DNA from: Acholeplasmataceae bacterium
GTDB taxonomy: Bacteria; Bacillota_I; Bacilli_A; Acholeplasmatales; Acholeplasmataceae
Assembly (NCBI GenBank): GCA_007692425.1
Contig: RECG01000016.1
Span: 1 to 64,000 of the forward strand
Length of the DNA: 64,000 nt
Reading direction: 5' to 3'
The notes beneath the pieces were generated by a model. It made no database searches. It was not told the origin of the DNA and worked only from the letters and a program-made list of their open reading frames with translations. Position numbers and translations under genes: made by a program. The first letter of the stretch is position 1, and each line of letters begins with the position of its first letter. Positions 16,022 through 59,671 of this stretch are shown here, in pieces.

Positions 16022-16086
16022 TTGAGAAGATATCTATTCGCATGCATGTTATAATTTTTTTGAATAAAAAAGGGAGTGTGATTATT

Positions 16087-16488
16087 ATGTTGACGTTTTT
16101 GAAACTCTATTTGCTGGCTTTTATCGTGTTTTTTGTGATTGATATGATTTGGCTTGGCCTCATTGCCAAAAATTTGTACCAAAACCAGATTGGTCACCTG
16201 CTCAAGGCCGATGTCAATTGGTACGCGGCCATTTTGTTTTATTTGTTGTTCATCGGCGCGCTTGTCATCTTTGTCTTGATGCCTGCCGTTCAAAATGGTC
16301 AAATCTGGCATGCCGTGTTATACGGTGCGTTGTTCGGGTTCATCACATACGCCACGTATGACCTGACTAATCTTGCCACTTTGAAAGACTGGCCTGTCGT
16401 CATCACCATCATCGACTTGACCTGGGGAACGTTTTTAGGTGCGTCCACAAGCACGTTTGCCTATCTGCTCTACCAATGGTTATTTTAA
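16087..16488 (+). CDS. DUF2177-type membrane protein
   Basis: VFFVIDMIWLGLIAKNLYQNQIG, ATYDLTNLATLKDWP, WGTFLGASTS. Confidence 0.8.
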   Translation: MLTFLKLYLLAFIVFFVIDMIWLGLIAKNLYQNQIGHLLKADVNWYAAILFYLLFIGALVIFVLMPAVQNGQIWHAVLYGALFGFITYATYDLTNLATLKDWPVVITIIDLTWGTFLGASTSTFAYLLYQWLF

Positions 16489-16503: not shown

Positions 16504-18273
16504 ATGCAAACACAACATTTGTCCAATGACCTGTTATACCAATCGTTTTTGCTCGGTGCCGAAAATGTCATTCGCGAAAAGAACACTTTGAATGCCATCA
16601 ATGTCTTCCCTGTCCCTGACAGTGATACCGGCACCAATCTGGCTGCCATGATGCGCTCGATTATCACGCATGCGAAACAAGGGAAGACACCTAAAGAGAC
16701 GATGGAATCGATCGCGGATGCGGCCATCATGGGTGCCAGAGGTAATTCCGGCATCATTTTTGCTGAATACATCCACGGTTTCGCAGCCGATCTTCCCGAT
16801 GACGAAGTCGGGGTGGATTCATTGATCACAGTAGCGCACAACGCCGCCAAAAAAGCTTATCATGCCATTTCAAAACCGGTCGAGGGAACCATCATCACTT
16901 TGATGCGTACCTGGGCGGGCGCGCTTGACCGTCTCAAGGGTGTCTCGAACAATTTGATCGACCTTTTGGCAAAGGCTTATGATGTGGTGCTCCAAGAGTT
17001 GGATAGAACCCCTGAGATGTTGCCGGTGTTGAAAGAAAACAATGTGGTCGATGCCGGTGCCAAAGGGTTTGTCCATTTCTTGGAAGGCTTTGCCCGGGCG
17101 TTGCGGGGGGAGACGCTTTCGGAAGACCTGAAGATTGATCAAGACAAGCCGGTCATCCATGTCGAGCACCTGGAAGCATCCCAGACACGCTATTGTACTG
17201 AAGCGCTTCTTCGTGGCAAAGACCTCAATGTCGATCAGATTCGTCACATGCTTGAATCGTTCGGTGATTCGGTTGTCGTGGCTGGCAGTGACAGAATGCT
17301 GCGTGTTCATGTCCATACCGATCAACCTGATGAGATTTTTGCTGGACTTGAACCTTACGGACAGATTCTCGAACAAAAGGTCGATGACATGCGACGCCAG
17401 TTTGAGGCGGCCAATCAACGCAAATATGACATTGCCCTTGTCACCGATTCGATTGCTGATCTGCCACAGTCGATGATCGACCAATACCAGATTCACATGA
17501 TTCCCATCGGATTGACCATCAATGATGTCAATTACTTTGACAAGGTCACCATCCAAAGTTCACGTTTCTATGGCATGATGGATTCATTAAAGGTGTATCC
17601 GACATCAAGCCTGCCCAATGAAAAAACACTCGAAGATTTCTTCTCTTTCCTGACAACTCACTACAAAACCATTCTTGTCATGACGGTCTCAAGCCAGATG
17701 AGCGGTACGAACCAGGTTTTTCAAAAGGTTGCCGCCAAATTCCCGGAAACCGACATCAAGGTCATCGATAGCCGTCAAAACTCAGGTGCCCAAGGTTTGT
17801 TGGTCATGACAGCTGCCAAACTGATCGAGGAAGGCTTGCCGGTTGATGAGATTGCGAGTCGTTTGGAAGATCTCCGTCAAAAGACCCGTATTTTAGTCAG
17901 TGTCCAAACCCTGAAATATATGGTCAGGTCCGGTCGTTTGAGCAAAGTGTCTGGACTGATGGGCAAAGTGCTCAACTTAAAACCGGTTGTCTCGATTGAT
18001 GACGAAGGTAAAGGCATCATCTTTGCCAAAGCGCTTTCGATTAAGAAAAGCAATCGTTTGATTGAAGCGCACATGCGTGAGATGGCGGACAAACATGGCA
18101 TTGAAACCTATGCCATTGTTCATGCCAATGCCGACAAGCGGGCGGCTGAGTACGCCCGGATATATGAAAACATGCTTGGTAAACAACCAGCTTATATCAT
18201 GGATATCTCGACCATTGTGGCCATGAATGCCGGGATCGGCACCGTCGCCATCGCTTACATCAGAAAGGACTGA
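16504..18273 (+). CDS. DhaL/DAK2-DegV fusion (fused FakA-FakB fatty acid kinase-like)
   Basis: N-terminal [17 protein letters not shown] and [11 protein letters not shown] (DhaL), C-terminal [42 protein letters not shown]-type DegV motifs. Confidence 0.9.
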
Positions 18274-19061
18274 TGTTGATGTTTTTAATCAATGCACTTG
18301 TCTTATTCGTGTTTTATCAAATCTTTTTCATCCTGGCCCAAATCAAGAAAAACAATGGCATCGCTGATATGGCCTGGGGTCTTGGTTTCGTCGTGATTGC
18401 CTTTTCAAGCCTCATTCAAAGCGGCGAATGGTCACTGATCCCTTTGACCATCACGCTTCTTGTGATGATCTGGGGTTTCAGGTTGTTCTTCTATATCGGT
18501 CTGCGTAACTGGTCAAAGCCTGAAGATCATCGTTATGTCGCCATGCGTAAAGCCTGGAAGACGAAGATCATGCTCAAGGCTTATCTGATTGTCTTCTTGT
18601 TTCAAGGACTGTTGCTCTACATCATTTCCTTGCCGATCCAGTTCGCCATGTGGACCGGTGTCGCTTTGGCTGATACCACCAGCATCATCATTTATGTGGG
18701 TGGTGTCTTGTTGTGGCTGATCGGTTTCTTCTTTGAAGCCGTCGGTGATCATCAGCTCAAGGTGTTCAAGCAAAAACCGGAAAACAAAGGCAAAATCATG
18801 AGTACGGGTTTGTGGCGTTACACGCGTCACCCGAATTATTTCGGTGAAGCCCTCATGTGGTGGGCGATCTGGCTGTTGTCGATTGCCGGCCTTGGTTTGT
18901 TCAACATGACCGGCATCATCGGACCGGTGCTGATTACTTATTTGCTTCTGTTCGTATCAGGCGTGCCTTTGCTTGAAAAACGCTACAAGGACAACGCTGA
19001 TTTCCAGGCTTACGCCAAAAAAACCAGCATCTTCTTCCCTTTGCCCCCTAAAAAGCAATAA
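18273..19061 (+). CDS. DUF1295/steroid 5-alpha-reductase-like membrane protein
   Basis: [63 protein letters not shown]. Confidence 0.9.
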
Positions 19062-19114: not shown

Positions 19115-19250
19115 GTTTGGGTCGCTTTTGTGCGGGTTTGGCATAGGCACAGGTCGCACACGGCTTGTCTTTGTTCTTCCGCATGCCTCTGATGACCAAG
19201 ATGAAGATGATTGCCACCACCAACAAGATGAGTCCGTCAATCCAGGTCAT
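19095..19250 (-). CDS. FeoB-associated Cys-rich membrane protein (51 aa; not in supplied ORF track)
   Basis: Manual translation MTWIDGLILLVVAIIFILVIRGMRKNKDKPCATCAYAKPAQKRPKQKRDSD; one TM + CxxC; directly downstream of feoB. Confidence 0.8.
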   Translation of the reverse strand: MTWIDGLILLVVAIIFILVIRGMRKNKDKPCATCAYAKPAQKRPKQKRDSD

Positions 19251-21229
19251 ATCATCACCTCGATCAACCGGCCGATGTTAAAGACGATGACAGCGAGCAG
19301 CCAGGCCAGTCCGGTTTGGTAGAGTACTGCGAGCAGCATGCGCCGGCTGGAGCCCAGTTCTTGACGCATCGCACCGATGGCGCCGAAACATGGCGCTGAA
19401 AACAAGTTGAAGACCATGAAGGCATAGGCTGATGCCGGTGTGAAGAAGGCGAATGCAGAACTGCCGAAAATCAACATCCCTTCAGTGGTTTCTTCCGAGA
19501 ATCCGGCGATGATGGCCATGGAGGCGACCACTTGTTCTTTGGCGACCAGCCCTTGGAGGGCTGAAACGGTGGCACCCCAGTTCCAGGTGCCGAGCATGGG
19601 ATAGAACAGCCAGGCCATCACATGACCGATACCGGCCAACATGCTTTGGTCGGGGTCGATGCCATATTGAAGACGCCATGAAAAACTGATCAGAAACCAG
19701 ACGACCACGGACGCCATCAAGATGATTGAACCGGCGTGTTTGATGAAGGCCATGGCCTTGCCATAGACATCACGCAAGACATAAGACATGTTGGGCATTT
19801 TATATTGGGGCAGTTCGCTGATGTATCGGCTGCTGTTGCCTTTGAAAAAGATCTTGTTTAAAAGCAAGGCCGAGAAAAAGATGACAAAGATGGCCATGAA
19901 ATAGAGCGAGGCGGCCGCCAGACCGGAACGATTGGTGAAAAAATAGCCGGCAAACAAGACGATGATCGGCAGTTTGGCACTACATGGAACAAAGGGCGTC
20001 AACATGACCGTCATCTTTTTCTCGCGTTCATCATGAATGGCTCTGGACGCCAGGATGGCGGGCACGGAACAACCACTGCCGATAATAAACGGAATCAAGG
20101 ACTTGCCGGAAAGTCCGACCCGTTGAAACACCTTGTCCAAGACAAAGGCGATCCGTGACATGTAGCCGGTCGTTTCCAACAAGGCAATCATGACAAACAA
20201 CATGATCAGCTGTGGCAGAAATGCCAGAATCGCACCGACTCCGGCCAGCATACCGTTGACTACGAGACTGACCGACCAGTCTGACGCACCCAGACCCGAC
20301 AAGCCTGTTTCAACGCTTTCGGATAAGATTTCCATCCACCCTTCGACCAGATCGACCGTCCAGGCACCGAATGGACCGGCTGCCAGATAATAGATGCCGA
20401 ACATGATGATGAAAAACAAAGGTATCGCCAAAAAGCGGTTTAAGAAGATTTTGTCGAGGGTGTCGGTCCATGATTGTTTTTGGTGACGGACCGTGATGGC
20501 TTGATCACGGATCATCTCGATGGTGCGGTACCGTTCATCCGCGATGATTTGTTCCATGTCGCGTTGATATGAGGCGGAAAGACCTTCGATGATGGCGTCA
20601 ATCATCGGTTGGCGGTAAACATCCACATGCGGATTGCCTTCGATCAGACCAATGGCGATATGTCGCGCATGGGGGGGTTCAAGATGTTTTTCAATGTCTT
20701 TCAATGCTTTTTCGATGACGTGATCATAAAAGCGCTCGTGCCGGTTTTTGCGAAATTGACCCGTTTTGATGGCTTGAATCAAATCGTAGATGCCGGTTTT
20801 CTTCAAGGCTGAAATGGCGATGATGGTCGTGTCCAGCTTTTGTTCAAGCGTCGCCAGATCAATGTCAATGCCCCGACTGACCGCGATGTCGCTCATGTTC
20901 AAGACAATCAATACGGGAAGGTCGAGTTCCAACAGTTGCGTGGTCAGATAAAGACTGCGTTCAAGTGCGGTCGAATCGATGATGTTGATGACCAGGTCGA
21001 CACCACCTTCCAATAGGAAGGTTTGAGAAATCTTTTCCTCAATGCCATAAGGGCTCAACGAATAAATACCCGGCAGATCGACCACTTCATGGTCGGTGCT
21101 GCGCAGGATGCCCGTCTTCTTTTCGAGGGTGACACCCGGCCAGTTGCCGATTTTTTGGCTGCTGCCGGTCAGATGATTGAAAAGGGTTGTTTTTCCGGCG
21201 TTGTGGTTGCCGACAAGGGCGATTCTCAT
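19247..21229 (-). CDS. feoB: Ferrous iron transporter B
   Basis: MRIALVGNHNAGKTTLFNHLTG, VVDLPGIYSLSPYG, NMSDIA, Gate/FeoB_C membrane region. Confidence 0.96.
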   Translation of the reverse strand: MRIALVGNHNAGKTTLFNHLTGSSQKIGNWPGVTLEKKTGILRSTDHEVVDLPGIYSLSPYGIEEKISQTFLLEGGVDLVINIIDSTALERSLYLTTQLLELDLPVLIVLNMSDIAVSRGIDIDLATLEQKLDTTIIAISALKKTGIYDLIQAIKTGQFRKNRHERFYDHVIEKALKDIEKHLEPPHARHIAIGLIEGNPHVDVYRQPMIDAIIEGLSASYQRDMEQIIADERYRTIEMIRDQAITVRHQKQSWTDTLDKIFLNRFLAIPLFFIIMFGIYYLAAGPFGAWTVDLVEGWMEILSESVETGLSGLGASDWSVSLVVNGMLAGVGAILAFLPQLIMLFVMIALLETTGYMSRIAFVLDKVFQRVGLSGKSLIPFIIGSGCSVPAILASRAIHDEREKKMTVMLTPFVPCSAKLPIIVLFAGYFFTNRSGLAAASLYFMAIFVIFFSALLLNKIFFKGNSSRYISELPQYKMPNMSYVLRDVYGKAMAFIKHAGSIILMASVVVWFLISFSWRLQYGIDPDQSMLAGIGHVMAWLFYPMLGTWNWGATVSALQGLVAKEQVVASMAIIAGFSEETTEGMLIFGSSAFAFFTPASAYAFMVFNLFSAPCFGAIGAMRQELGSSRRMLLAVLYQTGLAWLLAVIVFNIGRLIEVMI

Positions 21230-21495
21230 GGCATCACCTCGACGGTGATCAAGGCCATGTCCTGCTTGCGGAGACAAAGTTCATATCCTCTCAGTTCAAG
21301 ATCAACAGGATCGCCCAGGGGCGCGATTTTTTTGACTTTGACCAGTACGCCTTCAGTGAGGCCCATGTCGAAAAAGCGCCTTCTGAGGGCCTTGTCTTCA
21401 GGATTGATGTGAACCACTTTGCCTTTCTGATTGATGACAAGTTCGGACAGGCGCACGCGTGCACCGGCCGGATGTCTGGCTGGTTTGATTCTCAT
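21226..21495 (-). CDS. feoA: Ferrous iron transport protein A
   Basis: FFDMGLTEGVLVKVKKIAPLGDPVDLELRGYELCLRKQDMALITVE. Confidence 0.92.
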   Translation of the reverse strand: MRIKPARHPAGARVRLSELVINQKGKVVHINPEDKALRRRFFDMGLTEGVLVKVKKIAPLGDPVDLELRGYELCLRKQDMALITVEVMP

Positions 21496-21620: not shown

Positions 21621-23030
21621 TCATGTGTTATTTTCTGTCAATGTGTTGATGCGATCGACATAGGCTTGAATGTTGAATTTGCGTTCCAGACCCTTGTCGT
21701 TCATATAGCGGAGTTTGCCAAAAATGGGTCGTTCGGTCCAAGGTCTGTCGTGCTTGCCGAAACACCAGGCGACACCGGCATAGGAGTTGGGATCACGACC
21801 ATCAATGAAATATTTGTTGTTAAGCGTGATGATGGATTGATAAGCATCCTTATGGGTCAGGCTCCATTCGATGATCTTCTTGGCCCAGTACATCCGCATG
21901 TAATTATGCATATAACCAGTGATGCGCATTTCTGTCATGGCGGCATTGAAATAAGGATCATGGGTCTTGCTTTGGGCGAGTGCTTCCATGTCATATAAGT
22001 GCGGCCTGAAGTCGTTTTCGTGGGCTTTCATGGAGTGATAAGCCCATGGCTCCGTCATGGTCTCGAAGACATCATAACCTTTTTGATAGGTGACATAATT
22101 GAAGGCAAGTTCACGGCGGACCAGCAATTGTTCGATAAAGGCATCAAAGCCTTGACCGTTGATGTGTCCCTGTTCGAGCGCCATGAACATGCGCTCCAAC
22201 AGTTCCAAGGCGGCGATTTGTCCAAAATGAAGATACATGGATAGTTTGGATGTGTATGCGGTGCTTGGGTCGTTGCTTTCATGATAATGGTCAGCCTTTT
22301 CGCGGATGAAGAGATCCATCAGGCGGGAGGCTTCCAAATAGCCGCCATGATACAAAGGGCTGGCGCTGACGGTCTTGTCAATAGGTAATCTTTCAAGAAG
22401 CGCATCGATGTCCAAGAGATCGTCATCGCTTGCAATGTTTTTCAATGTGATGCCTTCATAGTCTGGCAATCTGACAAAATCCCGGAAAGCGGGATACAGT
22501 TTCTTCAGTTTGGGTCTGAGGGTGTACGCCCCATATTCAGCCTTGTCAGAGGCCACGTCGACGGGAACAATTAAATCAGTGTCAACCTTGTCGATTTGAA
22601 GATGCGGGTGGTGTTTATGGGCATGCCCGAGCACCGTTTCACGCCATTGTCTGGGCACTTTGAGATACCCGGCATCCATGACAAGTGTATCCGCTTCAGC
22701 TAAAAGCGGCATGACCGCTTGATCAGGAGAATCCAGTTTGAGGATAAACGTGATACCCAGTTTGCCAAGCAAGGATTTGGTTTCGGCCAATCCTTCAAGC
22801 ATGAAACGATAATGTCTGAGATTGGCATCTGGATATGAGGGCGTCAATCCGAAAACAACCAACAAGGGTAATGCCTTCTGATTGGCGGTTTCAATGGCAT
22901 GGGACAAGGCGTGGTTGACATGGACACGTTGAGCCTGTTGCATCCAATAAAGCACATATGCACCCGTCTTGTCGGTTTGGTTTTGTTTAAGTGTTGTGAG
23001 TCGTCTGGGATTCATGAGTTGGGTCAGCAC
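21621..23030 (-). CDS. phrB: Deoxyribodipyrimidine photolyase (class II-like)
   Basis: GAYVLYWMQQAQRVHVNHAL, YTLRPKLKKLYP, LLVRRELAFNYVTYQKGYD, MRITGYMHNYMRMYWAKKIIEWS, GRDPNSYAGVAWCFGKHDRPWTERPIFGKLRYM. Confidence 0.94.
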   Translation of the reverse strand: MLTQLMNPRRLTTLKQNQTDKTGAYVLYWMQQAQRVHVNHALSHAIETANQKALPLLVVFGLTPSYPDANLRHYRFMLEGLAETKSLLGKLGITFILKLDSPDQAVMPLLAEADTLVMDAGYLKVPRQWRETVLGHAHKHHPHLQIDKVDTDLIVPVDVASDKAEYGAYTLRPKLKKLYPAFRDFVRLPDYEGITLKNIASDDDLLDIDALLERLPIDKTVSASPLYHGGYLEASRLMDLFIREKADHYHESNDPSTAYTSKLSMYLHFGQIAALELLERMFMALEQGHINGQGFDAFIEQLLVRRELAFNYVTYQKGYDVFETMTEPWAYHSMKAHENDFRPHLYDMEALAQSKTHDPYFNAAMTEMRITGYMHNYMRMYWAKKIIEWSLTHKDAYQSIITLNNKYFIDGRDPNSYAGVAWCFGKHDRPWTERPIFGKLRYMNDKGLERKFNIQAYVDRINTLTENNT

Positions 23031-23218
23031 ACAAGGCGGTCATGCCTGCGGCCTGCCTTTCGTGATTGATCAAGTCTACCAAATCAATTGTATCATGATT
23101 CCGGGTGTTCAAGATGAAGACGTGTCACATGCTTCCCACATTTTCACAAATTATGCGGTTGAAGGACCTTGATGCGCGTACGATGGGCGTAAGACTTATT
23201 TATATTTATTATTAGTGT

Positions 23219-23224
23219 TATAAT
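23219..23224 (+). promoter_or_regulatory. Candidate -10 box (TATAAT) of heliorhodopsin promoter
   Basis: tgtTATAATgtgaatg 32 nt upstream of the start codon; -35 weak (ttattt). Confidence 0.5.
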
Positions 23225-23255
23225 GTGAATGAACACAAAAAATTTGGAGGGTAAC

Positions 23256-24059
23256 ATGGAAGAAGCCAAGTATTTACAGAAGGAAAGTTTGCGAAGATTT
23301 AACATGATTATGGGAGGATTGCACCTGCTACAGGGGCTCCTCATGATTGTCTTGTCGTTGTTTGTGCTCGACCAGATCGCCGCGTTTGAGATTACGATCA
23401 CACAAATATTCTTGCGTTATGACATGACACTGCAAGCATTGGTGGTCGATTTCAAGAATCTCTTTAACCTGCCTTTCTACTTTTTAGTCGCGTTGTTCTT
23501 GCTAATTTCGGCTGGCGCACATGCCTTGATTTCGTTTCCGAAAAAGCTGAATGATCTCTACAACGCCGATCTCGACCGTGGCATCAACCGTTTTCGTTGG
23601 TTCGAGTATGCACTCAGCTCTTCGATCATGATCGTCTTGATCGCCACCTTGTTCGGTGTCAGGGACATCGGTTCGTTGGTGTTGATTTTCATTGTCAATG
23701 CCGCGATGAACCTGTTCGGTCTTGATATGGAAATCATCAACTCGGGCAAACAAAAAGACAAGGTCAATTGGGGACCGTTCATCTGGGGAACCATTGCCGG
23801 GCTTGCCCCGTGGATCGTCATCATCACTTATATGGCCGGCAATACTGAAGCGTTGGATCAGGTACCCTGGTTTGTCTGGGCGATTGTCGGAACCTACTTT
23901 GTAGCGTTCAACACGTTCCCGATCAACATGATTTTCCAGTATCTGGGCGTGGGCAAATGGAAGAATTACATTTATGGCGAACGTTTCTACATCATTTTGA
24001 GTCTGGTCGCCAAATCGATTTTGGCTTGGTTGGTGCTGTTTGGCGCCATGCAACCGTAA
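23256..24059 (+). CDS. Heliorhodopsin
   Basis: TM3 RFRWFEYALSSSIM (Glu counterion region) and TM7 LSLVAKSILAWLVL (retinal Schiff-base Lys); ~267 aa, 7 hydrophobic segments; SD ggaggg before ATG at 23256. Confidence 0.93.
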   Translation: MEEAKYLQKESLRRFNMIMGGLHLLQGLLMIVLSLFVLDQIAAFEITITQIFLRYDMTLQALVVDFKNLFNLPFYFLVALFLLISAGAHALISFPKKLNDLYNADLDRGINRFRWFEYALSSSIMIVLIATLFGVRDIGSLVLIFIVNAAMNLFGLDMEIINSGKQKDKVNWGPFIWGTIAGLAPWIVIITYMAGNTEALDQVPWFVWAIVGTYFVAFNTFPINMIFQYLGVGKWKNYIYGERFYIILSLVAKSILAWLVLFGAMQP

Positions 24060-24071
24060 GACACAACAAAC

Positions 24072-24095
24072 AAGACCGGTGAAAGCCGGTCTTTT
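24072..24095 (+). terminator. Intrinsic terminator after heliorhodopsin gene
   Basis: aagaccgg-tgaaag-ccggtctttt. Confidence 0.75.
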
Positions 24096-24110
24096 GCTTG
24101 AGAGGTTTTT

Positions 24111-25070
24111 ATGTTCAAGAAAATCAGACAACCCGAACTGTTTCAAGGGCATCATCGGAAAAACCGCTATTTCGAAGGCTGGTATTTCAAGTCGGTCACC
24201 AAAGATGAGCGCTTGTCTTTGGCGCTGATCCCTGGCATCAGCCTGAATCGTCAAGACCCACATGCCTTCATCCAAGTGTTTATCGCCCGGCACAGTGACG
24301 ATGATGTCGAGCTCAAGACACATTATGTGCGCTATGATGTCGACGACTTCTCCTATAGTCGTGATGTTTTTCGAGTGCAAATCGGCACAAGCATCTTTAG
24401 CGGTGATCACATTGATATCGAGATACAGCATGACAACCTTGACATCAGAGGACGATTGGACATCAAGGACAGGACGCCGATTGAGAAGTCACTTCTGGCA
24501 CCTAACATCATGGGCATCTTCGGTTATGTCGGTTTCATGGAATGTTATCATGGCGTCATCAGCATGTCCCACCGGCTCGAAGGCTCACTCATGATTAACC
24601 ATCAACCGGTTGTTTTCGATGACGGCAAAGGCTATCTTGAAAAAGACTGGGGCAGATCGTTTCCCCGAGCTTATGTATGGATGCAGTCCAACCACTTCAA
24701 ACAACCGGATACATCTTTCATGTGCTCGTATGCGGACATCCCTTTCCTCGGTTTGTTTTTCAAAGGGTTGCTCGCGAATCTGGTCATTGCCGGCAAGGAA
24801 TACCGTTTCGCGACATACAACGGCGCCCGTGTCCTGAAAGAGGAGATAGAAAAAGGCAAGGCCGTTTATCTCATCAAACGTGGTCGTCTGCGTTTGTTGA
24901 TTGAAGCCGTGACCCAAAAAGAAATCGAACTGGCGTCACCGCGGATGGGTGTCATGAACGAGACCATCAAGGAAGGCCTCTCAGGCAAGGTCACCTTGAC
25001 CTTGTGGCGTGGCCGGGAACAAATCTATCACGATACCGGGACAAGCGCCGGCATCGAAATCATGAAATAA
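24111..25070 (+). CDS. Tocopherol cyclase-like family protein
   Basis: NRYFEGWYFKSVTKDERLSLALIPGIS, GFMECYHGVISM, GKGYLEKDWGRSFPRAYVWMQSNHF. Confidence 0.82.
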   Translation: MFKKIRQPELFQGHHRKNRYFEGWYFKSVTKDERLSLALIPGISLNRQDPHAFIQVFIARHSDDDVELKTHYVRYDVDDFSYSRDVFRVQIGTSIFSGDHIDIEIQHDNLDIRGRLDIKDRTPIEKSLLAPNIMGIFGYVGFMECYHGVISMSHRLEGSLMINHQPVVFDDGKGYLEKDWGRSFPRAYVWMQSNHFKQPDTSFMCSYADIPFLGLFFKGLLANLVIAGKEYRFATYNGARVLKEEIEKGKAVYLIKRGRLRLLIEAVTQKEIELASPRMGVMNETIKEGLSGKVTLTLWRGREQIYHDTGTSAGIEIMK

Positions 25071-49626: not shown

Positions 49627-50967
49627 TCATCCTTTCCAACGCAAGGTTTGTTTCAACAAGATCTTGGCAGCCTCGGGGTGATGATGGGACAAGACACCGA
49701 TTGAGGCCAGGATATAATCGTGATCCAGGTAGACGGGTACTGATGGATCAGGGGCGAGCTTGGTGTGGCTGCGTTCCAGATAGGTTTTGATGATGGCGGG
49801 TGCATCATGCTCATAGAGCAAGGCGCCTCCGGTAAGGACGATCATTTTCACCTGGGTGGCATCTTTACCGTCAGGAATGATTTTCACGCCGCTTGACGTG
49901 AAGACGCGACGCAAGTCTCCCACATGTCTGTCCATGGCTTGATAAACACATTGCCTGGTTAAAAGACTGATCAGTTTTTTGCCGGGCTCGGTAACCGGGA
50001 TGAACGGTTCTTCCTGCATCAACACACGGATGTCGTCCATTTTCATGCCCATCAGCCGTTCGAGTTCTCCGGTCTTGAAGCTTTCCATCACATGGCTGCG
50101 GTTGATATAGACACCGAGGTCGCCTTCGACCGTCCGCTTCATCCTGGGTTCTCCTTCCAGGTATTTGCGGTATTCAGGTTTGGGATCGGCGATGGTGTGG
50201 ACATCGGTGGTCGCACCACCGACATCAAGGGTCATGACACCTTCTGACATGTCATCCAACAAGATGGTGGCGTCCATGACGGCTCCGGGTGTGGGGATGA
50301 TGGTGTGGTCGACCATCTCGAAAATGCGTTGCATGCCTGCAGCATGGATGATGTTTTGTTCAAATGTTTCATAGATGGCCTTCCTGAGTGGCAGGATATT
50401 GAAATCATCCACGCGTGGATAGACGTTTTCGACCACGAAAAGGCTCGGATGCTGCAGTTTTTTGATCCGTTCGTGGTTGGCGATGTTGCCGGTGTAGATG
50501 ACTGGGATGCCTAGTTCAATCGAATCCAAAAGATTTTGCCAAGCCACTTCTTTCTCACCGTAGTCGGTCCCTCCGGCAATGACGACCATGTTCGGGCGGA
50601 CCGCTTTGATTTTCTCAATGTGTTCCGGCGTCAGACGGTTGGCCGTAATCAGGTGGATGTTCGCACCTGCACCAAGCGCCGCTTCCTTGGCGGCTCTGGC
50701 CGTCATTTCATAGACGAGGCCGTGCACGGTGATTTTAAGACCTCCTGCCGCACTTGACGAGGCGTACATCGCATCATATTCAAGCGTCTCGACAGCCAGG
50801 TTGTGTTTCAAATCCTCAATCGCGTTCATCAACCCGGTGGTGACATCGGTCTCGACCGTCGTCTGGTGCAAACCGCGCCCCAAAAAAGCCACCTCCTGGT
50901 GGAGATTGAAGGCATTGATGACGGTTGTGGTGCTGCCGATTTCGGCAACCAGGCAATCAACTTTCAT
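49627..50967 (-). CDS. GlmL/MutL-like protein (ASKHA-fold mutase accessory)
   Basis: CLVAEIGSTTTVINAF, MTLDVGGATTDVHTI, VLTGGALLYE. Confidence 0.87.
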   Translation of the reverse strand: MKVDCLVAEIGSTTTVINAFNLHQEVAFLGRGLHQTTVETDVTTGLMNAIEDLKHNLAVETLEYDAMYASSSAAGGLKITVHGLVYEMTARAAKEAALGAGANIHLITANRLTPEHIEKIKAVRPNMVVIAGGTDYGEKEVAWQNLLDSIELGIPVIYTGNIANHERIKKLQHPSLFVVENVYPRVDDFNILPLRKAIYETFEQNIIHAAGMQRIFEMVDHTIIPTPGAVMDATILLDDMSEGVMTLDVGGATTDVHTIADPKPEYRKYLEGEPRMKRTVEGDLGVYINRSHVMESFKTGELERLMGMKMDDIRVLMQEEPFIPVTEPGKKLISLLTRQCVYQAMDRHVGDLRRVFTSSGVKIIPDGKDATQVKMIVLTGGALLYEHDAPAIIKTYLERSHTKLAPDPSVPVYLDHDYILASIGVLSHHHPEAAKILLKQTLRWKG

Positions 50968-53158
50968 GGATCATCCTATGTTTCTTGACGATGAAACTGG
51001 CGACATCCTTGCCCTTGGTGCCGCGGCCGAACCCTTGGTCCATGCCATGCGCCTTGGCGATTTCAGGTGTCACCTGGGTCCCGCCGGCAAGCAAGATCAG
51101 CTTGTCGCGGACACCCTTTTCAACGGCATAATCATGCAATTTTTGCATGTTCTTATAGTGAATGTCATCATGGGAGATGATCAAGGAGATCATGACCACG
51201 GTCGAATGGGTCTCGATGGCGGCATCAATGAATTTCTCGATCGGTACACTGGTGCCCAGATAAGTATAGCTAAGTCCGTATTTTTCAATACCGCCGTGCT
51301 TGATATCGAGAATCTCACGCATGCCGACACTGTGCTCGTCGCTGCCACCGGTACCGGCAATGACCTTGAGTGGATGTGTTTGCATGTAAGCGATCATTTC
51401 ATCTTCTGGTAGTGTTTCTTCTTTTGTGGGTAGTACCAAGGTGGAGGTGTCGATGTCAAACGTGACCGTTCCTTTGATCTGGATGCGCGTGCCTTCGCTT
51501 GGATGCATGACTTCCCTGTGGATGACTTCGACCTGGGTCAGGTTGAGTTGTCTGCCCGCTTCAAGTGCGGCTGCCTCCGCTGTCAAGGGATCGGTCGGGA
51601 AAAAGAGATCGACGGTGATGATGCCATCACCCAGCCACTGGACTTCCGGTTTGAGTTTGAAGGTGCTGCGATAGTCTTCGTTTTCCTCCATACGGACGTT
51701 GACGTTGTCAAAGTGATCAAGTTCATCGATGTATTGGATCATGTCCGGATTTTCGAAGGTCGATCCGCCGATCAGTCTGGCCGGATCATCCTTGCAGGCC
51801 GGATCATACTGTTCGACGTTGTTATCGCCGTAATGGGCGGTGACTGGCGCCATGTAATCCTTGGCACGCTTGATGATCGTGCCGTTGCCGATGCCGCCGT
51901 CAATCTGGCGGGCGATGCCGTCACCGGCGCGTTCGGGATAATAACCGCTATCGACAAACATGCCGGCCTGGACCGCTTGATAATAGCCACCCATGTCGAT
52001 GATTTCTTCAAGCATCAACACGGCACGTTCTTGGAGTTCGCGTTTCGTGTCCGTGAGATAGCCTTCTTTTTTAAAATCCAACATGGACATCAAATCATCC
52101 ATGCCCGTCATGGCCTGTTTGGCGGTGTCGAGCGCTTCGATGTTATAAACATGCCAAGGCACGTTTCTCCCTTCATCAGGGGTGATCGTGCTTTGGATAT
52201 CTGCGGATGTCAACCGCGAGATGACGAGGTTCAAGACATGGGTCACGGTCGCTTCACGGGTCGAGGAATCCATGTATTTGGTGTTCATCTGGGCCCGCAT
52301 CTTGTAAGCGCTGAAAAACTCGCGCAAAGCCAGCGCGTAAGGCAGATTAAGTTTCAAATCAGGGCTGGGCGGCGCCGCCGGTGGCACTGTCGAGAGACAA
52401 ATCAGGTCGGGACGCATGCCGACCTTTTCACTCATCCGGCAGTTGATGGCATGCTGGATCAGTAGTTCGGGCATGACTTTCCAGGCATCCCTGGCAGTCG
52501 CGTTCGCGTTATGGGCGCCATCGATCTGGGCAAGACCGCCATAAGCCATGATGGTCTTGCTTTCAGCCGCGTCAACAAAACTCCTGATCATGTTGATGTT
52601 GCGATACAAGACATTGTATTGCGGATCTTGATGAGCGCCGTTGACGCCTTCTTCGACAAACATGACGGCGATTTCAGGGCCGGCCACACCGGAGACATAC
52701 GAATGATAATTGATCGGACGACCGACTTCATCTTCAATCAGGTCGAGTGCTTTGCGTTGGGCCCTGACCTGTTTTCTGGTGATCGGGACACCGCCGACAC
52801 CCTGGGGTGTGCCTTCCAGCAGGCCATCCATGTGGGACTGTCCGGCGGTGCGGATGACCATGATGTGGTCTGCACCGTGATAAGCCGCCATGCGCATGCG
52901 GCGGATGTCGTCCTCAAAACGTCCGGAGGCGATTTCGGTGGTGATGGTGGCGTCCGGTTGCGGATCGATATGACCCAGATGACGAGCGCTTGGCAACGGA
53001 ATGGTGTTGTTCAATGACGGGCTGGCCTGTTGATATGTGAAAGGTCCGAGCGTCTGGGGTTTGGCGTCCCGCCAGACCCAGCCGCGACGACGGGGCCGAT
53101 ACTTGTCAAGATCGTTGAGCAGAAAACGGATGTCAAGCTTGTAGTTGGGATCAAGCAT
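50957..53158 (-). CDS. oraE: D-ornithine 4,5-aminomutase large (B12/PLP) subunit
   Basis: B12 motif GTGGSDEHSVGMREILDIKHGGIEKYG; large OraE-like N-terminus; oraS adjacent. Confidence 0.92.
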   Translation of the reverse strand: MLDPNYKLDIRFLLNDLDKYRPRRRGWVWRDAKPQTLGPFTYQQASPSLNNTIPLPSARHLGHIDPQPDATITTEIASGRFEDDIRRMRMAAYHGADHIMVIRTAGQSHMDGLLEGTPQGVGGVPITRKQVRAQRKALDLIEDEVGRPINYHSYVSGVAGPEIAVMFVEEGVNGAHQDPQYNVLYRNINMIRSFVDAAESKTIMAYGGLAQIDGAHNANATARDAWKVMPELLIQHAINCRMSEKVGMRPDLICLSTVPPAAPPSPDLKLNLPYALALREFFSAYKMRAQMNTKYMDSSTREATVTHVLNLVISRLTSADIQSTITPDEGRNVPWHVYNIEALDTAKQAMTGMDDLMSMLDFKKEGYLTDTKRELQERAVLMLEEIIDMGGYYQAVQAGMFVDSGYYPERAGDGIARQIDGGIGNGTIIKRAKDYMAPVTAHYGDNNVEQYDPACKDDPARLIGGSTFENPDMIQYIDELDHFDNVNVRMEENEDYRSTFKLKPEVQWLGDGIITVDLFFPTDPLTAEAAALEAGRQLNLTQVEVIHREVMHPSEGTRIQIKGTVTFDIDTSTLVLPTKEETLPEDEMIAYMQTHPLKVIAGTGGSDEHSVGMREILDIKHGGIEKYGLSYTYLGTSVPIEKFIDAAIETHSTVVMISLIISHDDIHYKNMQKLHDYAVEKGVRDKLILLAGGTQVTPEIAKAHGMDQGFGRGTKGKDVASFIVKKHRMIHES

Positions 53159-57348: not shown

Positions 57349-58110
57349 TCACGACGTCCGTTTGATTTTCTTGCCCTTTTCCTTCAGCGCCTGGACAGCA
57401 AAGCTTGCCACGTCAAACGCATACTTCTTAGGTCCGAAACCGGCATCATAACCCAGTTCCTTGGCCAAGGCATGATGGATTCTGGGTCCGCCGATGATGA
57501 CAATGAAGTCATCGCGTCTGCCTTCCGCCTCCAACAGTTCAACAAACCGGGTCAAATTATGGATGTGAACATCTTTTTGGGTGACAGTCTGGCTGATCAG
57601 GATGACATCAGCGTGGTGTTTGATGGCTGCTTCCAAAAGGGTTTCATTATCAACTTGTCCGCCAAGATTGATGGCATGGATGCCCTGATAGCGCTCCAGA
57701 CCATAATGACCGGCATAGCCCTTCATGTTCATGATGGCATCAATCCCGACGGTATGGGCATCGGTGCCGGTCGAGGCACCGATGAAGACAATCGGTTCAG
57801 CGAAATGGGTGCTGACATACTGTTCGACTTCTTCCATGCTCATGACATCGGATTCGACCTCAGTCACTTTCAAGGATGAAAGATTGACCTGGTGGCTGAC
57901 GGTGCCATAAATGATATAATGACTGAAATCATCGGACAAGACAGTGCCGTGAACCACGCTGGCATCGTGGATGCCCATTTTCAAGGCCAAGGCTTTGGCG
58001 GCTTCTTCACCCAGTGGACCGTAAGGCATGGGAAGGGTGAACGCCACTTGGATTTTCCCGTCGTTCATGGTGTCGCCATAAGGACGGATCAAGGTGTGTT
58101 TTTTAGCCAT
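57349..58110 (-). CDS. kamE: Lysine 5,6-aminomutase beta (B12-binding) subunit
   Basis: GASTGTDAHTVGIDAIMNMKGYAGHYGLERYQGI (DxHxxG), downstream of kamD. Confidence 0.92.
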   Translation of the reverse strand: MAKKHTLIRPYGDTMNDGKIQVAFTLPMPYGPLGEEAAKALALKMGIHDASVVHGTVLSDDFSHYIIYGTVSHQVNLSSLKVTEVESDVMSMEEVEQYVSTHFAEPIVFIGASTGTDAHTVGIDAIMNMKGYAGHYGLERYQGIHAINLGGQVDNETLLEAAIKHHADVILISQTVTQKDVHIHNLTRFVELLEAEGRRDDFIVIIGGPRIHHALAKELGYDAGFGPKKYAFDVASFAVQALKEKGKKIKRTS

Positions 58111-59671
58111 GTCTTTCCTCCTCGAGCGCACGAAGCAGGCGTTCCATCAGCGGATTTCGATAATCCGCATGTTTGACGAAGACACCGTCAAGACCTTTGC
58201 CGCCGTCTTCATGACGCGGAACACCGGCAAAGGTGCCGCGCGACAACGTTTTAAAAAGCCCTTCTGTTCTGATGTCCGCCAGCAGTTGTCTGGCTTGAAA
58301 CAAGACATCATGGGCGCGCTTGATAATGATGCCGTCCGGACGAAACATGATTTCCTCGCCGAAATCCTTGAATGCTTTTTCAATATACGCGGCATTATCC
58401 AGCGCCATCGCACGGTCGCTGATGAACGGCGTGTGGATGGCTTCGGTCATCATGCCTAGCAAATGAATGGTTTGTCTGGTCGTGACGGCCGTGATATTGA
58501 ATAATGCGTTTTGGACCATCCCCATGAAGACATCACCCGTCATATGCTTTGTCGGAGGCATGTATTTGAGGGGTGCGTCCTTGAAAATCTCACGCGACAG
58601 TTCGGCTTGGGCCAATTCATAGAGAAAGCTGTTCTCCATGCGCGGATCGATTTCATACGCATGGCCCAGGCCCATCAACGCCGGATCCATGCGTGCCAAA
58701 CTGGCAAATTGTTCGTTGATGAACTGTGATGCCAGCACGGTATGGGCGTGTTCAAAAGCATCGGAAGTGGTCAAATAATTATCTTCGCCGGTATTGATGG
58801 TAATGGCCGCATAAGCGCTCAACACCCGTGAAAAATACTGGTCGATGAACGTTCTTTTCATGTTGATGTCGCGAAAAATGATGCCGTAAAGCGAATCATT
58901 AAGCATCATATCGAGGCGTTCGATTGCGCCGAGCGCTGCGATTTCAGGCATGCATAAGCCGGAAGCATAGTTGACCAGACGGATGTAACGGCCTTCTTGA
59001 TCGGAAACGTCATCCAATGCCTGACGCATCAAACGGAAGTTTTCCTGAGTGGCATAGGTGCCGCCAAACCCTTCCGTGGTGACACCGTAAGGGACATAGT
59101 CCAATAGTGATTGCCCGGTGCTTCTGATGACCGCGATCACATCCGCGCCCTTGCGGGCGGCAGAGACCGCCTGCTTGATATCTTCGTAAATGTTGCCGGT
59201 GGCGACAATGACATATTTGAGCGGCGTTGTCTTGGCCGGCGTCTGCAAGATCTTGGCATGACGCATTTGACGCATCTCATCAATCCGGGCAACCATCTTG
59301 TCAAGGTGCGGGGTCAATAGCTCAAGATGCGGACTCAAGGGGAGGTCCGCATATTTGGAGAGGTCTAGCATGCCTGATGCCACACGCAACGCGATGTCTT
59401 GCGGCGACATGCCGGTTTCATGAATGGCATAGGAAAGATAATGGCTGATACCTTTGGTGAGGTCCGCCTTGTGTCTGACGTGATCAACCACGACATTGAC
59501 TAGCGGTACGGCAAAAGCATTGATGCCGTCGATGCCTAATAAACGTAAAAGCGAGCGTTCGACGGAGACGGTCGTATGTTTGTTGATATCGTCCTGGACT
59601 TGTCTGGCAATGGCGCCGGCATCGGTCCGGCACGCTGTGATGAGGTCAGGATTGAGATTTAGTTTTGACAT
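58103..59671 (-). CDS. kamD: Lysine 5,6-aminomutase alpha subunit
   Basis: ~520 aa; VSVERSLLRLLGIDGINAFAVPLVNVVVDHV, RSTGQSLLDYVPYGVTTEGFGGTYATQENFRLMR. Confidence 0.92.
   Translation of the reverse strand: MSKLNLNPDLITACRTDAGAIARQVQDDINKHTTVSVERSLLRLLGIDGINAFAVPLVNVVVDHVRHKADLTKGISHYLSYAIHETGMSPQDIALRVASGMLDLSKYADLPLSPHLELLTPHLDKMVARIDEMRQMRHAKILQTPAKTTPLKYVIVATGNIYEDIKQAVSAARKGADVIAVIRSTGQSLLDYVPYGVTTEGFGGTYATQENFRLMRQALDDVSDQEGRYIRLVNYASGLCMPEIAALGAIERLDMMLNDSLYGIIFRDINMKRTFIDQYFSRVLSAYAAITINTGEDNYLTTSDAFEHAHTVLASQFINEQFASLARMDPALMGLGHAYEIDPRMENSFLYELAQAELSREIFKDAPLKYMPPTKHMTGDVFMGMVQNALFNITAVTTRQTIHLLGMMTEAIHTPFISDRAMALDNAAYIEKAFKDFGEEIMFRPDGIIIKRAHDVLFQARQLLADIRTEGLFKTLSRGTFAGVPRHEDGGKGLDGVFVKHADYRNPLMERLLRALEEERHG

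Follow-up and report, generated by a model that had tools for sequence, protein, structure and literature searches.

The closest described system to the locus analysed here is that of Trichococcus flocculiformis, in which the heliorhodopsin TfHeR binds the photolyase TfPHR with a Kd of 22 µM, giving about 3-fold more repair and repair in green light. R162 and K227 of TfHeR were essential for this binding and E97 helped; the substitution K227Q abolished it (PMC9769723). A link to photolyase had been ascribed to an actinobacterium in a preliminary description of the present DNA. The link exists, but the organism is T. flocculiformis, a member of the Bacillota (PMC9769723); the actinobacterial heliorhodopsin case concerns glutamine synthetase (PMC9529153).

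Two further studies are relevant. In a survey of heliorhodopsin neighbours that counted genes of the same operon, photolyase and DUF2177 were among ten frequent groups (PMC11109279). Both are found near the heliorhodopsin described below, and none of the ten groups is a tocopherol-cyclase-family gene. Genes for carotenoids and photolyase flank the heliorhodopsins that have a Zn-ribbon (PMC8612252), and such genes are also near several of the heliorhodopsins in the relatives studied here. The function of heliorhodopsins is debated, and most proposals have been built on gene neighbours.

We have analysed a window of 64,000 nucleotides, i.e. positions 1 to 64,000 of contig RECG01000016.1 (assembly GCA_007692425.1) from an Acholeplasmataceae bacterium. 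With moderate confidence we favour the reading of the locus as a photoprotection cluster that is conserved among wall-less bacteria of the Acholeplasmataceae type, with roles proposed for a class II photolyase (PHR), a heliorhodopsin (HeR) and a protein of the tocopherol-cyclase family (TOC). The argument draws on the identities of the genes, the recurrence of their layout, terminators, the absence of the known retinal genes and the polyphyly of the HeRs that occupy the locus, all established at the level of sequence. The link between HeR and photolyase genes is already known (PMC9769723). Of the new findings, the strongest concern the unit of HeR and TOC, with its terminator, and a position between PHR and TOC (the slot) that appears to have been refilled.

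The photolyase and heliorhodopsin genes

The central part of the locus comprises the following features.

21621 to 23015, minus strand: class II CPD photolyase (PHR), 464 amino acids from the likely ATG at 23015; the reading frame is open from a GTG at 23030
23016 to 23255, no strand assigned: divergent intergenic region between PHR and HeR, about 240 bp; the gaps at 11 other loci are 62-263 bp
23216 to 23224, plus strand: extended -10 element of the HeR promoter, TGTTATAAT, read from the sequence
23246 to 23251, plus strand: Shine-Dalgarno GGAGGG for the HeR ATG at 23256, read from the sequence
23256 to 24059, plus strand: HeR, 267 amino acids from the preferred start; the reading frame opens at 23229; PF18761 and NF038020

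The top family for the window PHR is TIGR00591, with a score of 456 bits that is below the cut-off of 550; this cut-off was reached in none of 151 genomes of relatives. Among solved structures, the class II enzymes 8oet and 2xry (M. mazei-type) are matched with E values of ~1e-91, and class I enzymes with E values of ~1e-5. By this comparison PHR is a class II enzyme, nearer to class II than to class I photolyases. The start at 23015 is likely because MNPRRL aligns with the beginning of a solved class II enzyme.

The electron-transfer triad of class II photolyases is W381-W360-W388 (M. mazei numbering), a chain described as "almost strictly conserved" (PMC5885780). The window PHR has W381 and W388, but W360 is replaced by Phe so that the full triad is not present, and the same replacement is found in 35 of 40 related photolyases. 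The triad serves photoreduction, and repair by PHR is therefore still to be expected; in the proposed mechanism the enzyme would use blue light to repair UV-induced pyrimidine dimers. We note that Trp is kept at position 360 by the photolyases of T. palustris, L053, L060, L097 and L137.

On its other side PHR is adjoined by genes for FeoB (19247-21277) and a FeoA-like open reading frame (21226-21495). The order FeoAB-PHR is retained in many relatives, in some of which a gene for a GGDEF protein lies between FeoAB and PHR; no such protein was found in the window.

The HeR gene is the only one in its genome. In profile searches it scores 303 bits against PF18761 (cut-off 26.7) and 281 bits against NF038020 (cut-off 100). 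The motifs EYALSSSIM in TM3 and AKSILAW in TM7, reported previously, are both present in the translation. On alignment with TaHeR (6is6) the window HeR keeps the Glu counterion of TM3, the retinal-binding Lys of TM7 and both His residues, and RWFEY and LVAKS are retained. The topology is assumed to be inverted, with the N-terminus in the cytoplasm. Unlike the Zn-ribbon HeRs (PMC8612252), the window HeR gave no match to a Zn-ribbon at its N-terminus in the profile search, and its genome lacks phytoene synthase.

There are two candidate starts for HeR. The ATG at 23229 is just 5 nt past the extended -10 element, and thus at or before the expected start of the transcript. The ATG at 23256 is preceded by the Shine-Dalgarno sequence and gives a better match to the N-termini of homologues, and is preferred on all three grounds. 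The shared intergenic region had been put at about 200 bp; this is correct for the limits of the open reading frames (198 bp), but the preferred starts give ~240 bp.

In the favoured reading PHR and HeR would be expressed from divergent promoters within this one ~240-bp region, perhaps under the control of light. A TATAAT-like element was found again 5′ of HeR in most of the relatives' loci. A generic promoter scan gave nothing above shuffled sequences, and did not list the HeR -10 because it has no -35 match. Alignment of 12 divergent gaps yielded no shared operator beyond the -10 element, and no conserved light-response operator was recognised in the shared PHR/HeR region. A search of the genome for a CarH/LitR (MerR-B12) regulator found none and returned three B12-binding hits. 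Two of these lie in the window and resemble aminomutase subunits on reading their sequences; the third is an open reading frame of 140 amino acids on another contig. The B12-binding and adjacent proteins of the window (50957-53158, 57349-58131 and 58103-59671) appear ornithine/lysine aminomutase-like.

Recurrence of the layout among relatives

About 100 HeR loci were fetched and their genes clustered. HeR and PHR are found as divergent neighbours in relatives, and the adjacency is not unique to this genome. In 29 of 30 linked loci PHR is encoded 5′ of HeR and on the other strand, although some of these are duplicate records (L095 = L041, L102 = L046 and L106 = L050) and the independent count is slightly lower. 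The two genes are directly divergent, separated by 62-263 bp, in 12 non-duplicate loci that include the window and L096, which is outside the family. Other linked loci have one to four genes between PHR and HeR, drawn from crtI, crtB, CTP_transf-like and DUF92. Beyond the family, a class II PHR gene is adjacent in just two of about 58 other HeR loci, i.e. L096 (divergent) and L097 (same strand), and thus the pairing is not a general feature of HeRs.

A class II photolyase is present in 36 of 40 genomes with HeR and in 9 of 111 without; DUF2177 co-occurs with HeR in 38/40 and with the photolyase in 41/45. The Fisher tests applied to these counts ignore kinship, and draft genomes may miss genes. 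The co-occurrence of HeR and PHR is partly due to shared ancestry. PHR is retained in genomes whose HeR is disrupted or absent (G034, G051, G048, G075 and others), and TOC is present without HeR in 17 genomes, with HeR lacking TOC in six. Neither PHR nor TOC therefore requires HeR. Broken or partial HeR genes occur in L128 (G034), G051, G101 and G028, Acholeplasma laidlawii QMP being included here, and a class II photolyase is kept in all four genomes.

Three further genes in the window belong to the neighbourhood.

16042 to 16488, plus strand: DUF2177 membrane protein, PF09945, 156 bits; it adjoins PHR in other genera
16504 to 18273, plus strand: DAK2/DegV (fatty-acid-kinase-like) protein, between DUF2177 and DUF1295
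18273 to 19061, plus strand: DUF1295 membrane reductase/methyltransferase-like protein, PF06966, 255 bits

These three genes, PHR and HeR all lie within 8 kb in the window. The order DUF2177-DAK2/DegV-DUF1295 is found beside PHR in five loci of other genera (L139, L141, L147, L148 and L152). On the unrelated Bacilli contig L097 the genes run on one strand in the order DUF1295-DUF2177-HeR-PHR, as a compact operon that includes an overlap of 4 bp and a gap of 34 bp. The compact module of HeR and photolyase described earlier is thus a real and recurrent pair, but the module is larger, with TOC as the closest linked gene and DUF2177 and DUF1295 in the neighbourhood.

Possible coupling of HeR to the photolyase

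In the favoured reading HeR would absorb light in the membrane and modulate a cytoplasmic partner encoded in the cluster, the choice of partner being conjectural. The TfHeR system provides one candidate, since in both cases an HeR gene lies beside that of a class II CPD photolyase in a monoderm of Bacillota type (PMC9769723). The arrangements differ, however. TfHeR and TfPHR are encoded in a single operon with DUF2238, whereas the window genes are divergent, with ~240 bp between their starts, and have TOC downstream and DUF2177 and DUF1295 nearby.

The residues that matter for binding were mapped through the T. palustris HeR (L125), which stands in for TfHeR and in whose numbering they are D97, K162 and K227. 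The window HeR has D, K and G at these positions, so that the positive charge at 162 is kept while Lys227 is not. The HeRs of the slot fall into groups A to D, discussed below. Gly is found at 227 throughout clade D (the window, L052 and L053). Clade C has E or S at 162 and G or R at 227, and nearly all sequences of clades A and B have the equivalents of R162 and K227. We note that basic residues at 162 and 227 are also common in HeRs unlinked to PHR, so these sites are not a marker of linkage.

Coupling of the TfHeR type, where cytoplasmic loops of HeR bind PHR and widen its action spectrum into the green, is a possibility to be kept in mind for the window rather than one we would expect. It draws on the binding and green-light repair published for T. 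flocculiformis (PMC9769723), on the residues of clades A and B and on the recurrence of HeR and PHR together. Yet the position at which K227Q abolished binding by TfHeR is Gly in the window, clades C and D deviate, the two genes do not form one operon, the basic residues are not confined to linked HeRs, and the mapping rests on T. palustris numbering. The Gly makes direct binding of PHR less likely, which weakens the physical coupling suggested in the preliminary description as far as the TfHeR route is concerned. Since the K227 equivalent is present in clades A and B and lost in C and D, these clades lend themselves to testing the binding model as published.

The HeR-TOC pair and its terminator

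Downstream of HeR are two features that recur with it.

24072 to 24101, plus strand: terminator-type hairpin with T tract in the gap from HeR to TOC; each of 23 such gaps has one
24111 to 25070, plus strand: TOC, tocopherol-cyclase family PF14249, predicted AttH/CrtC-type fold, 59 bits (cut-off 26.6 in the profile search)

In 23 non-duplicate loci TOC follows HeR on the same strand after 37-71 bp. Downstream of TOC the gene content changes among loci while the HeR-TOC pair is constant, and TOC is the tightest and most constant neighbour of HeR. A hairpin followed by a T tract is found in every one of the 23 gaps, compared with a mean of 0.5 and a maximum of 3 in dinucleotide shuffles. The sequences of the stems vary but the pairing is maintained. 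The gaps leave scant space for a separate promoter. L140 and L150 have no HeR in the slot, and there PHR and TOC directly face each other; in L150 TOC is preceded by TGTTATAATCAAACTAATC, which is almost the same as the promoter of HeR in L034, TGTTATAATTAAACTAATC. Most simply, TOC would be transcribed from the HeR promoter by read-through of the conserved terminator, which would result in more HeR than TOC.

A model of TOC calculated from an alignment of five sequences (pLDDT 82.5, pTM 0.83) is all beta, with two domains. In a fold search it matched AttH NE1406 (2ich, the best), the Fsa2/Phm7 pericyclases, CghA, kievitone hydratase and phosphosteroid lyase with E values of 4e-10 to 6e-6 and TM scores of about 0.5-0.58. 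For the enzymes of the AttH/CrtC/tocopherol cyclase fold (2ich, Fsa2/Phm7 and kievitone hydratase) E is 4e-10 to 1e-8, at an identity of only 10-14%. The TOC sequence gave only a chance-level match to solved structures, and it has no close solved relative. As the fold relatives act on hydrophobic substrates of polyene or terpenoid type, an isoprenoid or lipid is the best guess for the substrate of TOC. In the cluster TOC would thus be a predicted two-domain AttH/CrtC-type enzyme that may act on an isoprenoid, polyene or lipid. In the f5 genomes TOC is found on the same contig as phytoene synthase (crtB), within about 3 kb, and these are free of HeR.

It could be that TOC is the true partner, either modulated by HeR or handling a polyene or retinoid that HeR uses, with PHR merely a co-regulated neighbour. 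In its favour are the closeness and constancy of TOC (23 loci at 37-71 bp), a fold family whose substrates are hydrophobic polyenes and terpenoids (as with pericyclases, kievitone hydratase and phosphosteroid lyase) and a genome that has no retinal-making gene. We nevertheless consider it doubtful, since TOC occurs without HeR in 17 genomes, including near crtB, and HeR without TOC in six, and TOC has no close solved relative. TOC is in any event a candidate partner of HeR that was hitherto unreported. Among the open-access papers searched, none was found that treats heliorhodopsin together with tocopherol cyclase, or heliorhodopsin together with Acholeplasma. A more speculative proposal, to which we give rather little weight, is that HeR and TOC constitute a light-controlled unit of two genes, where HeRs of interchangeable lineages modulate, or are supplied by, an AttH/CrtC-type isoprenoid enzyme. 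This would be an eleventh kind of partner beside the ten of PMC11109279, possibly tied to the acquisition or handling of chromophore in hosts without retinal genes.

Different HeR lineages in the same slot

The set of HeRs linked to TOC and PHR was defined beforehand by neighbourhood, whereas groups A to D were named after viewing the tree. Trees were calculated by quick searches with SH-aLRT support. The slot HeRs are scattered over separate parts of the HeR tree. Holding A, B, C and D as one clade was rejected (p-AU 4e-9), as was a clade of A, B and D (p-AU 7e-4). A clade of A and B was not rejected (p-AU 0.69), and we therefore do not claim these two as separate. Within clade D, the PHRs of L053 and the window fall among those of the family; in L052 TOC nests with its own genus (98) and HeR sits in clade D. 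The HeRs of clade C are just 53-60% identical to sampled HeRs of A, B and D, yet have the same PHR-carotenoid-HeR-TOC layout. Because the slot HeRs are polyphyletic while PHR and TOC group inside the family, it appears that HeRs of different lineages have refilled the slot, through transfer or the loss of alternative old copies.

That the layout recurs even with an HeR of different lineage points to genes that work together and not to a chance neighbourhood. The contrary view is that the genes are stress genes hitch-hiking in inherited synteny, HeR having no functional connection to the genes around it. The layout is indeed concentrated in one family, tests of presence and absence are confounded by kinship, and HeR is being lost in several lineages. 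But HeRs of at least three lineages occupy the same slot, L097 holds the same genes in another order and strand, and HeR-TOC stays constant as the genes outside the unit change; we regard hitch-hiking as unlikely. A set of neighbours that survived the apparent replacement of HeR argues more strongly for a working link than shared synteny does, and this supports the reading as a photoprotection cluster.

Other HeRs of these genomes lie outside the slot. In L054 and L055 (G035 and G045) the slot between PHR and TOC has no HeR, and a clade-C-like HeR is encoded elsewhere in the genome. Extra HeRs that belong to separate clades and are unlinked to PHR or TOC are found at L062-L065, L067, L057 and L133-L135. 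Seven genomes (G040, G069, G071, G049, G043, G032 and G023) have an extra unlinked HeR beside one of slot type.

Supply of retinal

The preliminary description noted the lack of a retinal biosynthesis gene in the window and proposed a search of the genome for a brp/blh-type oxygenase. None was found, and the observation holds for the whole 1.45-Mb assembly (97.8% complete), from which Blh, RPE65-type oxygenases and phytoene synthase are all absent. None of 151 genomes of relatives yielded a Blh above the cut-off or an oxygenase of the RPE65 family; a Blh candidate in G061 is a sub-threshold fragment with two stops and was discounted. Phytoene synthase is present in 27 relatives, several of which have the gene inside the cluster between PHR and HeR, and is missing in 21 of 40 HeR-bearing genomes.

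With these genes absent, retinal is not made by the known routes and must come from outside or via an unrecognised route; in the photoprotection cluster HeR would be loaded with retinal in one of these ways. A functional rhodopsin is made by another bacterium in which the known retinal genes are lacking (PMC7734400). A role unrelated to light, as an unlit apo-opsin, would accord with the missing genes in this genome and its 151 relatives, but seems very unlikely given the intact TM7 Lys, TM3 Glu and both His of the window HeR, that precedent, and the probable life of many HeR hosts in mixed communities, from which they could take up retinal.

In three clusters (L048, L151 and L145) DUF92 and a weak sub-threshold match to CTP_transf_1 occur with crtB/crtI. 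These two families include phytol-salvage kinases of plants, and salvage of isoprenoid feeding carotenoids in these clusters is a lead.
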